Assembly: GCA_036271555.1 (NCBI GenBank)
Contig: DATBAK010000010.1
Location: forward strand, 62,001-126,000
DNA from: Acidimicrobiia bacterium
GTDB taxonomy: Bacteria; Actinomycetota; Acidimicrobiia; IMCC26256; PALSA-610
Length of the DNA: 64,000 bases
Direction: 5' to 3'
The translations under genes and the position numbers were made by a program. The number at the start of each line of letters is the position of its first letter. Position 1 is the stretch's first letter. Under the pieces are notes generated by a model, which saw only the letters and a list, made by a program, of their open reading frames with translations, had not been told where the DNA came from and searched no databases. Of this stretch, positions 49,808-53,132 are shown in pieces.

Positions 49808-51082
49808 ATGCGGTCACGACGGCTCGTCCCGGCACTCGTTCTCGGACTCGCGCTCGCGCTCGCACTGGGCGCCTGTGGCAGCACCGTCGACGGCGCGGCG
49901 CCCACGCGAACGACGGCCACCGCGGCGCCGCCAACGCACCGGCTCGCCGATCCCGCGGTGGTCGTGGCGACCAGCGACGGCATGGTCTCGGTCCGCACCG
50001 CGACCGGCCAGGTCGGCTTTCGCGCGCCGAACGGCATCGTGTCGCCCGATCGCTCGACGATCGTGCAGGCCGAGGCGATGACGACCGGCACGCGCGTCGT
50101 GGCGTCTGACGCCGCGACCGGCACCGTGCGCTGGAGTCACGACGTGCCCGGCAACCGTCGGGTGCGGGTGGCGTCGCCCGGCGGGCGCTTCGTGGCCCTC
50201 GTCGACGGCAACCTGAGCTACGCAGCGTCGCCGCGCGCGACCACGACGGTCGACGTCGCGACTGCGACCGGCGCGCACCGCTACCGCTTCGCCGGCAACT
50301 TCGATCCCGAGGCGTTCAGCACCGATGGTCACACGCTGTTCGTCCTCGACTTCCTGCCCGCGATGAAACCGACGCGCTATTCCGTCCGCGAGGTCGATCT
50401 CGCGTCGGGTGCAATCCGCGCGGTGCCCGACCGCGACGGCAGCATCCGCGCGCCGATGCCCGGCTACGCGCTGGCACAGACGATGAGTCCCGACGGCACG
50501 CAGCTCTACACGTTCTACGCGTCGAGCGAGCCGATCTCGGGCGACGACGGCGACCAGTACCACGCGTGGATCCACGTGCTCAACCTGCAACACAAGTGGG
50601 CGCACTGCCTCGAGCTCGACGAGGACATCGGCATCCAGGGCGGCGCGAACGCCGCGCTGGCAGTGAGTGCGGACTCGAAGCGCCTCTACGTGAGCGACCG
50701 GTTGACGGGCGCGTTCGTGAGCATCGACACCGCTTCACTGCGCGCGACGCGCACCCGTTTCGTTCGCGATCTCGAGACCAGCACGGGTGCGGTGCTCGCC
50801 GCCACCGGCGACGCGCTCTACGCGAACGCGGGTCCGCACGGCGTCGTTCGCCTCGACGCGCGCACGCTCGAACCCGACTCCGGAACGTTCGAGTCGTCTC
50901 GCGCGGTCCTCGCGCTGCAGGTCGACCGTTCGGGGCAGGCGCTCTACGTGCTCGCGACCGACGGCCTCTTCGTCGTCGACCCGCGCGGGCGCGTCCTCGA
51001 ACGATGGGCGGCGCCCGGGAGCGCGACGAGCATCGCCCCGTCGCCCATGCCGGGCCGTGGCACCTATTTCTGCGCGTGCTGA
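49808..51082 (+). CDS. beta-propeller lipoprotein (YncE-like)
   Basis: A 424-residue lipoprotein. The signal is VPALVLGLALALALGACG with the lipobox Cys near residue 24 and a Thr/Ala/Pro linker. The body consists of propeller-like repeats: VVVATSDGMVSVRTATGQVG, GTRVVASDAATGTVRWSHDV, HTLFVLDFL, GTQLYTFYA, KRLYVSDRLTGAFVSIDT and QALYVLATDGLFVVDPRGRV. It probably binds a ligand or partner outside the cell. ATG with GGGGGAGG upstream. The following ECF sigma and anti-sigma genes are close behind (33 bases), so it could be an accessory of that signalling unit. Confidence 0.75.
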   Translation: MRSRRLVPALVLGLALALALGACGSTVDGAAPTRTTATAAPPTHRLADPAVVVATSDGMVSVRTATGQVGFRAPNGIVSPDRSTIVQAEAMTTGTRVVASDAATGTVRWSHDVPGNRRVRVASPGGRFVALVDGNLSYAASPRATTTVDVATATGAHRYRFAGNFDPEAFSTDGHTLFVLDFLPAMKPTRYSVREVDLASGAIRAVPDRDGSIRAPMPGYALAQTMSPDGTQLYTFYASSEPISGDDGDQYHAWIHVLNLQHKWAHCLELDEDIGIQGGANAALAVSADSKRLYVSDRLTGAFVSIDTASLRATRTRFVRDLETSTGAVLAATGDALYANAGPHGVVRLDARTLEPDSGTFESSRAVLALQVDRSGQALYVLATDGLFVVDPRGRVLERWAAPGSATSIAPSPMPGRGTYFCAC

Positions 51083-51115: not shown

Positions 51116-51772
51116 GTGGACGACACTTCGGCATCTCACCGGGGCCGCCGCGTGCTCGAAGCTGATCCGCACATCATCCGCACCGCGGCGACCGGCGACC
51201 ACCGCGCGTTCGAGATCATCGTCCGCACCTACCAGGAGCCGGTCGTGCGGTTCCTCGCGCATCTCCTCAGCGACCGCGTCCTCGCCGACGACGTCGCGCA
51301 GGAGACGTTCCTGCGCTGCTATCAGAAGCTCGATCACTACTCGTTCGAGGGTCGCTTCTCGACGTGGCTGCTGCGAGTCGCGCACAACGCCGGCATCGAC
51401 GCGATCCGGAGTCGCGTGCGCCGGGAGCGACTCGACGGCGCGGGAACGATCGTGAGCGCGACCGACCCGGTGCTGCGCGCGGAGCTCGTCGCCGCGCTCG
51501 GGACGCTGCCGGTGCGGCTGCGTGAGCCGCTGCTGCTCGTCGAGGTCACGGGTCTCCGCTACCGCGAGGCCGCGGAGGTGCTCGGTATTCCCGAAGGGAC
51601 GGTCAAGAGTCGCGTGGCCCACGCGCGCTCACGGCTCGCGCGGTGGTTCCGCGCGGGCGACGAGTCGAGACCCGGGGCCGGCGAGCGGTCGGGTCGCAAC
51701 GATGTCGAAGCGCCGTATCGCGACGAGCGAGGACGCGACGATGGAAAGGGGGCGAGCGGTGCGGTGTCGTGA
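51116..51772 (+). CDS. ECF RNA polymerase sigma factor
   Basis: A 218-residue sigma-70 family protein. Region 2: IVRTYQEPVVRFLAHLLSD, VLADDVAQETFLRCYQKLDH and FSTWLLRVAHNAGIDAIRSR. Region 4: LGTLPVRLREPLLLVEVTGL then REAAEVLGIPEGTVKSRVAH, the recognition helices. A charged tail follows. GTG 51116 is used; GTG 51152 would start just before the conserved core. The stop overlaps the anti-sigma gene by 14 bases, so the pair is coupled. Confidence 0.88.
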   Translation: MDDTSASHRGRRVLEADPHIIRTAATGDHRAFEIIVRTYQEPVVRFLAHLLSDRVLADDVAQETFLRCYQKLDHYSFEGRFSTWLLRVAHNAGIDAIRSRVRRERLDGAGTIVSATDPVLRAELVAALGTLPVRLREPLLLVEVTGLRYREAAEVLGIPEGTVKSRVAHARSRLARWFRAGDESRPGAGERSGRNDVEAPYRDERGRDDGKGASGAVS

Positions 51773-53132
51773 CGCAACGCCGCTGCTGTCGGCCGCGCTC
51801 GACGACGAGCTCGCGCCCGACGAACGGCAGGCGCTCACCGTGCACGTCGCGACGTGCGCGCGCTGCCACGACGAACAGCGCGCCTACGAGCGCCTCCGCG
51901 CGCAGCTGCGGGTCGGCGAGCCGATCGCCGTCGACCTGGTGCCTGCGCTCCGCGCGCAGCTCGACGACCGCCACGTGCTGGTCGACCTCGAGCCCGAGCG
52001 GGCGACCCGTCGACCCCGCCGCGCGCGCGTCGCCGGTGTGATCGCGCTGGTTGCGGCACTCATCGCCGCGCTCGTCGTGGTCGTGCGCCGACCCGCGCCC
52101 GTCCGTGTCGCCACGAGACCCGCGCCGGTGATCCCGCAACTGCGCGCTCCCGGTACGGCGTCGCTGCTGCTCGCGTGGACGACGGGGGGACTGCCGGCGG
52201 ACGCGACCGCGCGCACTCGCGCGATCGTCGGCGTGCGCGCGGTCACGGAAGTGCGCGGCACCGAGCTCCTGCTCACGGGCGAACACGACGCCGACGGCCA
52301 CGCGCGCCTCCACCTGCCCGCCGGCGCGACCATCCCGCTCGACGCGCTCGCGATCGATCCCGCGACCTACGCGCGCGACGTGCCCGGCAAGGCCGCGGCC
52401 GTGGTGCGCGCCCTCCCGCCCGACGGCGCGCTGCTCGGCGCGACCTCGGCGCGGCTGCGCGGGATCGGCGTCGGCGGCACGCTCACGTTCGGCGGCACGA
52501 CGCTGCGCGTCACCGGAGTGGTCGCCGATTCCCTCGTCGGCGCCGCGGAGATCGTCGTGCGCGACGACGGTCCGATGGCGGTTCCGACGCCGCGGTTCCT
52601 GTTGGTCGCGTACCGCGGCGATCGCTCGGACCTCGAGACCGCGATCCGCGTCGCACTGCAGCAGCCGGTCCGGTTCCGCGCGCCGGGAGAGACGCCCTAC
52701 CTTCGCCAGGGCGACGCGGTGCTGCCGCAGGCGATCGTGAAGGCCCGCTTCGGCGAGTTCTGGTATCGCCGCGCCGGCGACGGCCTCGTGACCATCGATC
52801 CCGCATGGATCGCGCGCAACATCGTGACGATCGACGTGACCGGCCTCGGCCCTATCCGCGTCAACCGGGGCATCGCCTCCGCATTGAAGACCGCGCTCGA
52901 CGACGCCGGCCTGCACTCGACGACATCGCCCGTCGGCTTCGAGGCGGAGCCGCTCACGGCGCGTCTCGAGTTGTCGCGCCACACCTGGGGGATCGGCATC
53001 GCGCTCCCGGGCGCCGCGACGAGCCGCCCCGCGACGATCGCCGCCCTCGCACGAGCCGGATTCCGCTGGGGCGGGCTATGGCTGAACCGCAGCCCCGACT
53101 ACTTCGAATGGGTCGGCAGCGCGACACCCTGA
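51759..53132 (+). CDS. anti-sigma factor with zinc finger and M15-peptidase-like exported domain
   Basis: A 457-residue membrane regulator. The cytoplasmic zf-HC2 domain (ALDDELAPDERQALTVHV, then ATCARCHDEQ, with H-x3-C-x2-C) should hold the sigma factor. A membrane helix (AGVIALVAALIAALVVVV) follows, then about 330 exported residues. The end of the exported part looks like M15 D,D-/L,D-peptidases: ELSRHTWGIGIALPGAA corresponds to the S-x-H-x-x-G-x-A-x-D motif and FRWGGLWLNRSPDYFEWVG to the WGGdW...HFE motif. The Asp is Leu and the second His is Tyr, so peptidase activity is probably lost and the domain may sense peptidoglycan. GTG 51759 has AAGGGGG before it; ATG 51741 is an alternative. Confidence 0.82.
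   Translation: MRCRDATPLLSAALDDELAPDERQALTVHVATCARCHDEQRAYERLRAQLRVGEPIAVDLVPALRAQLDDRHVLVDLEPERATRRPRRARVAGVIALVAALIAALVVVVRRPAPVRVATRPAPVIPQLRAPGTASLLLAWTTGGLPADATARTRAIVGVRAVTEVRGTELLLTGEHDADGHARLHLPAGATIPLDALAIDPATYARDVPGKAAAVVRALPPDGALLGATSARLRGIGVGGTLTFGGTTLRVTGVVADSLVGAAEIVVRDDGPMAVPTPRFLLVAYRGDRSDLETAIRVALQQPVRFRAPGETPYLRQGDAVLPQAIVKARFGEFWYRRAGDGLVTIDPAWIARNIVTIDVTGLGPIRVNRGIASALKTALDDAGLHSTTSPVGFEAEPLTARLELSRHTWGIGIALPGAATSRPATIAALARAGFRWGGLWLNRSPDYFEWVGSATP

Follow-up and report, generated by a model that had tools for sequence, protein, structure and literature searches.

In the window, that is, the whole stretch of 64,000 nucleotides analysed here, an ECF sigma factor gene is followed by the gene of a zf-HC2 anti-sigma factor whose exported part consists of a LolC/MacB-like domain and a degenerate M15 peptidase domain. 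That a zf-HC2 anti-sigma factor here carries a dead M15 domain finds strong support in the comparison with homologues, and the anatomy, homology, ligand loss and operon ancestry of this fused protein are established by the evidence given below. It belongs to a known type of ECF anti-sigma factor, but its sensor has been replaced by a fused degenerate wall peptidase, and the operons of its relatives indicate that it arose by losing an RseB-like sensor and joining the anti-sigma factor to the enzyme encoded downstream.

Architecture of the operon and of the fused protein

Three genes on the plus strand of the window, encoding a propeller-like lipoprotein, an ECF sigma factor and an anti-sigma factor, form a putative operon with the following features.

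49808..51082, + strand: beta-propeller-like lipoprotein, first gene of the putative operon; lipobox LGAC, C-terminus Cys-Ala-Cys
51116..51772, + strand: ECF sigma factor, 218 aa; Sigma70_r2 (2.4e-16) and Sigma70_r4_2 (7.6e-15), grouped by tree with the sigma factors of the standard operon (see below)
51759..53132, + strand: anti-sigma factor, 457 aa, with zf-HC2 domain, membrane helix, LolC/MacB-like domain and degenerate M15 domain
51765..51869, + strand: zf-HC2 (ZAS) domain, aa 3-37; Pfam PF13490, E 4.2e-9, above cut-off; Cys3 and H29-x3-C33-x2-C36
52029..52085, + strand: membrane helix, about aa 91-109; hydropathy 3.17 over 19 residues, same position in both fused homologues
52155..52697, + strand: exported LolC/LolE/MacB-like domain, aa 133-313, from predicted model and structural matches
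52704..52778, + strand: linker, aa 316-340, GDAVLPQ..VK..FGEF
52779..53117, + strand: degenerate M15 peptidase domain, aa 341-453, from profile match to 2vo9 and superposition on VanXYc/VanY
52980..52982, + strand: His408, the retained first zinc ligand, present in every intact homologue
53001..53003, + strand: Ala415, where every intact homologue has the zinc-binding Asp
53091..53093, + strand: Ser445, where every intact homologue has the catalytic Asp
53100..53102, + strand: Tyr448, where every intact homologue has the second zinc His

The propeller identity of the lipoprotein comes from sub-threshold matches to PQQ/SGL propellers, and its Cys-Ala-Cys C-terminus recurs in five homologues from other genomes (L122, L123, L125, L126 and L127). 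The anti-sigma reading frame has a GTG start and overlaps the stop of the ECF sigma gene, and its product displays one strong membrane helix followed by a long exported part. The original prediction of a zf-HC2 finger, a membrane helix and a coupled ECF sigma factor was confirmed by the Pfam match, the helix and the gene overlap; in the predicted model, the zf-HC2 domain superposes on RsiW with a Z score of 7.2. By analogy with such proteins, this domain would bind and inhibit the adjoining sigma factor.

The first exported domain was modelled with a pLDDT of 96-98 over most of its length and has the fold of LolC/LolE/MacB periplasmic domains, its structural matches being LolE (Z 13.4), MacB (3ftj, Z 11.9) and YknZ (Z 11.5) with Foldseek E values down to 4.6e-6; by sequence, MacB_PCD was matched at an E value of 0.011. 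In the linker that follows, intact homologues conserve G332 (99%), K328 (96%), F334 (95%) and E333 (93%), all of which are kept in the fused proteins, and the K...GEF core is conserved family-wide.

By fold and ancestry, the C-terminus is a degenerate M15 peptidase domain of the L-Ala-D-Glu/VanY type. The close homologues give M15 matches of 1.7e-13 and 2e-14 in this region, far above the cut-off, and all 56 members of the alignment match Peptidase_M15_4 (PF13539) at an E value of 0.1 or better. Although the window protein alone gives a sub-threshold Pfam match to this family (E 0.034), the profile built from the 56-member alignment matches 2vo9, an L-Ala-D-Glu peptidase, at 1.8e-6, the SRHxWGxAxDxN and DxxHFE motifs being aligned in register. 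This bears out the original alignment of SRHTWGIGIAL and FRWGGLWLNRSPDYFEWVG, both present in the window protein, with the M15 motifs. The model of the window protein (mean pLDDT 82.5, with values near or above 90 in most of the M15 domain but low ones in the poorly predicted pocket loop 384-401) superposes over residues 320-457 on VanXYc and VanY with Z scores of 6.2-6.5; since these are only modest, the M15 assignment is carried by the sequence evidence. A resemblance by chance was rejected because of the strong homologue scores, the in-register profile match to 2vo9 and the superposition.

The separate-gene operon of relatives and the origin of the fusion

The family combining LolC/MacB-like and M15 parts was found in 88 of the 395 class-sample genomes, a count that includes the three with fused proteins. 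Unfused homologues are exported, membrane-anchored proteins made up of a LolC/MacB-like domain and an M15 domain, and at 27 loci (5 in the class sample, 22 in the phylum sample) the gene lies directly behind a zf-HC2-type anti-sigma gene on the same strand. These loci span several families and carry an intact M15 domain in all cases but one (L160); an ECF sigma gene can be seen as well at 25 of them. This arrangement, referred to here as the standard operon, comprises loci L146, L149-L154, L156-L167, L170, L172, L173, L020, L056, L057, L060 and L109; in a sixth class-sample genome, the anti-sigma gene and the M15 gene are on separate contigs. Foldseek searches with the exported part of the standard-operon anti-sigma factor, using a model of low pLDDT (61), gave RseB of E. 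coli as best match (5.8e-9), followed by MucB, LprG and LolA. The standard operon, with its ECF sigma factor, RseB/LolA-like anti-sigma factor and LolC-like/M15 protein, was not found described in the literature searched, which left subscription journals mostly uncovered. The LolC-like/M15 gene is also retained in many strongly reduced genomes of one genus (family f22), being intact in the three copies read from genomes of about 1 Mb (L097, L098 and L100), and this retention suggests an important role for it.

Fused homologues occur in two other genomes of the same family as the window genome, with the same propeller, sigma and anti-sigma order. The propeller lipoprotein gene lies directly upstream of the sigma gene at all three fused loci, and it also adjoins the standard operon in one further genome (L057). 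A common ECF-type promoter motif was not established in the three fused operons, in which GAAC-like matches were inspected by eye. In the three fused proteins, the zf-HC2 domain and membrane helix run straight into the LolC-like and M15 parts and the RseB-like part is absent; the exported part of the window protein is accounted for by these other folds, and a profile search of the window genome for a full-length RseB-like anti-sigma factor (E 1e-20) gave no match. The zf-HC2/membrane end of the fused family matches standard anti-sigma factors of two genomes at 5.6e-13 and 2.8e-11.

In the sigma tree, the three sigma factors of the fused operons form one group (support 99), nested among those of the standard operon (96) and apart from the other ECF sigma factors of the family. 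This nesting, together with the separate-gene operon of relatives, argues that the RseB-like sensor was lost and that the anti-sigma factor was fused to the downstream protein. The M15/LolC tree places the fused proteins inside the operon-type clade but does not firmly unite the three, a fragment from L023 standing beside the window protein with moderate support, and the AU test does not reject a single fused clade (p 0.23). This M15 fragment (L023:5899-6843), from another genome of the same order, is truncated at its 5' end, has intact motifs and has no neighbouring sigma gene. Independent fusions, a reading prompted by its position, are argued against by the sigma tree and the common gene order, and one fusion with loss of the RseB-like sensor is for the same reasons the simplest history. 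Relatives show a switch that parted with its customary sensor and was fused to a functional enzyme, normally the product of the next gene; in the window lineage, an enzyme has therefore probably become a sensor.

Catalytic residues and conservation after fusion

When the motif SxHxxGxAxD is counted from Ser406, the zinc-binding Asp corresponds to residue 415 and the following Leu is residue 416. The zinc triad His, Asp, His of active M15 enzymes is thus represented in the window protein by His408, Ala415 and Tyr448, and the Asp three residues before the second His, which is the catalytic acid of M15C enzymes such as Ply500, is Ser445. His408 is the sole residue left of the four in the catalytic site. 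The first zinc His and the change of the second to Tyr had been correctly recognized in the original prediction, but the replacement of the zinc Asp by Leu was off by one; the structural overlay proposed there bears out the M15 fold, with a modest fit. Neither the loss of the catalytic Asp nor the LolC/MacB-like domain had been mentioned there.

Catalysis has most probably been lost in the window M15 domain, as previously suspected, and the distribution of losses lends this strong support: each of the three fused proteins is missing ligands, whereas all four catalytic residues (HDDH) are retained by 111 of the 117 unfused homologues in the phylum-wide sample. These four positions are invariant in the 53 unfused homologues of the class-level sample. 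Fisher's test for fused against unfused proteins gives a p value of 0.0003, the true weight of which is smaller owing to relatedness. At the positions 408, 415, 445 and 448, the fused proteins read HASY (window), HADR and STEH, each having lost a different set of residues. That ligand loss is exclusive to fused proteins was dropped in view of six unfused copies with losses in the phylum sample (one standard-operon copy, two paralogues in one family and three second copies near an intact copy), which imply that catalytic residues were lost more than once; five changes of these residues fall on the family tree.

Several unfused copies are of separate interest. The M15 protein of one standard operon (L160:1004-4012, - strand) has only its second zinc His changed, to Leu, and is possibly at an early stage of loss. 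Paired LolC-like/M15 genes, close together on one strand, were seen in L177 (3072-4319 and 4639-5922), L179 (2987-4240 and 5908-7194) and L190 (3047-4300 and 5872-7284), one copy being intact and the other degenerate (WRDL, KEQL and KQQL respectively), suggesting enzyme/pseudoenzyme pairs. In two genomes of one family, membrane-anchored unfused copies with lost ligands (L176:3010-4227, RANY; L191:3133-4341, HADH) lie directly downstream of an apparent dihydrolipoamide acyltransferase gene.

Identity among the fused proteins is 33-47% in the M15 part and 43-50% in the LolC-like part, whereas in unfused pairs matched for LolC-like identity, M15 identity is about 57-62% (5th percentile 45-51%). 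Conserved positions, defined as those kept in at least 80% of intact homologues, survive in all three fused proteins at 10 of 12 sites in the LolC-like part and linker compared with 11 of 28 in the M15 part (p 0.016, or p 0.04 without the four catalytic columns). The M15 fold core (W410, G411, G434, F435, W437, G438, G439, F449 and E450) is kept; R397, N417 and N421, which are near-invariant and surround the catalytic centre, do not survive in every fused protein. All three fused genes are open to the end with a full-length M15 part, and the codon pattern between the two other fused genes in this part (0.39/0.35/0.50) resembles that of the LolC-like part (0.36/0.37/0.59); between the window gene and these two, M15 differences at codon positions 1 and 2 are nearly as frequent as at position 3. 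With the frames open and the fold core and codon pattern kept, and with R397, N417 and N421 incompletely kept and ligands lost, the sequences indicate that the M15 domain is retained but its active site is not. Judged by the same pattern of conservation, the contact surface would lie in the LolC-like part and linker.

In the original proposal, stem peptides of the peptidoglycan occupy the dead M15 pocket uncleaved, and this occupancy governs sigma release. The M15 ancestry of the domain, the core retained in the window protein (His408, W410-G411, F435-x-W437-G-G and F449-E450) and the existence of anti-sigma factors that directly bind envelope-related ligands, such as RsiV with lysozyme (PMC5014341), are compatible with such a pocket; the excess divergence of the M15 part over unfused pairs of equal LolC/MacB divergence, the poor survival of its conserved positions, the incomplete retention of R397, N417 and N421 and the poorly predicted loop 384-401 speak against it. 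Since the LolC-like part was better kept than the M15 pocket after fusion, we consider the reading of stem peptides by this inactive site possible though unlikely. This better conservation would also suit a passive remnant, that is, an M15 domain persisting as a slowly degenerating stable cap while all sensing falls to the LolC/MacB-like domain and linker, and so would the different residues lost from each fused protein and the codon differences of the window gene. However, a domain that is full length and stop-free in all three proteins, with core motifs kept and with a codon pattern in the two other genes like that of the LolC-like part, makes a passive remnant unlikely as well.

An enzyme or metal binder with altered ligands could be read into the single ligand kept by each fused protein, and into the catalytic Asp kept in one and the second His in another, but the window protein is without two of the three zinc ligands and the catalytic Asp, and no replacement ligand is common to the three, making this reading very improbable. 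An active M15 enzyme of the usual kind was rejected on the same losses. The genomes being incomplete many-contig assemblies, at least one of them metagenome-derived, the fusion could conceivably be an assembly or frameshift artefact; the recurrence of an open fused gene in three genomes with the same three-gene order, at about 40-43% identity, led to its rejection and leaves it a negligible probability.

A probable condensed sigma switch and its relation to known systems

Taken as a whole, the reading preferred here, which we consider fairly likely, is that of a condensed sigma switch in which the RseB-like sensor was lost, the zf-HC2 domain and helix were joined to the LolC-like and pseudo-M15 parts, and binding at the envelope, or its loss, leads to sigma release. 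In many actinomycetote relatives, the operon encodes an ECF sigma factor, a zf-HC2 anti-sigma factor with an exported RseB/LolA-like sensor, and a membrane-anchored LolC/MacB-like protein with an intact M15 domain. In the window lineage, the RseB-like sensor has disappeared, the zf-HC2 domain and membrane helix have been joined to the third protein, and M15 zinc and catalytic residues have been lost. The zf-HC2 domain most likely holds the sigma factor at the membrane, as in known zf-HC2 anti-sigma factors, and the exported LolC-like/pseudo-M15 module most likely recognizes some ligand or partner at the cell envelope. A plausible partner is the propeller lipoprotein encoded in the fused operon. 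Binding, or its loss, would change the access of a protease to the anti-sigma factor, the regulated proteolysis of which would then free the sigma factor, as with RsiV. The loss of catalysis, the hold on the sigma factor, the signal, the bound partner and proteolytic release are inferred. More tentatively, a phylum-wide sensor may be envisaged, in which an RseB/LolA-fold anti-sigma factor is paired with a LolC-fold peptidase that itself reports the state of the wall to it, and of which the window is an end point, with a dead enzyme as the receptor wired to sigma; this wider reading is doubtful.

The fusion and the operon shared across the phylum tie a cell-wall peptidase to sigma-factor control in bacteria in which wall sensing is little studied. 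They offer an example of an enzyme made into a receptor that can be tested directly, sister lineages having the intact ancestral-type enzyme for comparison, and they make it plausible that an RseB/LolA-like sensor docks on a partner hydrolase of LolC-like type.

Nothing specific on anti-sigma factors with M15 domains was found in the literature searched, in which subscription journals were mostly uncovered. With the M15 L-Ala-D-Glu endopeptidases (Ply500 2vo9, LysB4, CwlK-type) and the VanY/VanXY D,D-peptidases, the family has in common the fold and the SxHxxGxAxD ... WGGxW ... HFE framework, and intact homologues keep all catalytic residues; the window domain, in contrast, is joined to an anti-sigma factor and has lost two zinc ligands, Asp and the second His, as well as the catalytic Asp. 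In its Cys3 and H29-x3-C33-x2-C36 residues, its helix and its overlap with an ECF sigma gene, the window protein resembles the RsiW-type zf-HC2 anti-sigma factors with a single membrane helix, but its exported part is LolC/MacB-like and degenerate M15. The RseA/RseB and MucA/MucB modules are paralleled by the standard-operon anti-sigma factor of relatives, which has an RseB-like exported domain in one polypeptide, whereas in the window protein this domain has given way to the M15 protein otherwise encoded downstream.

RsiV, the lysozyme receptor of Bacillus, is an anti-sigma factor that binds lysozyme (PMC5014341, PMC6066255) and frees its sigma factor by regulated proteolysis (PMC6066255). 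Like the window protein, it has an exported domain dealing with cell-wall enzymology; unlike it, this domain is a lysozyme-binding inhibitor of the DUF4163/DUF3298 type and not a dead hydrolase. GerS, a LolA-like protein of Clostridioides difficile, binds and activates the CwlD amidase (PMC8496864), and this pair, along with the LolA-LolC complex (6f3z), shows LolA/RseB-fold proteins binding a peptidoglycan hydrolase or a LolC domain. CwlD being an amidase and no sigma factor being involved, both differ from the operons described here, and by analogy they suggest how the RseB-like anti-sigma factor could dock on the LolC-like/M15 protein in the standard operon.
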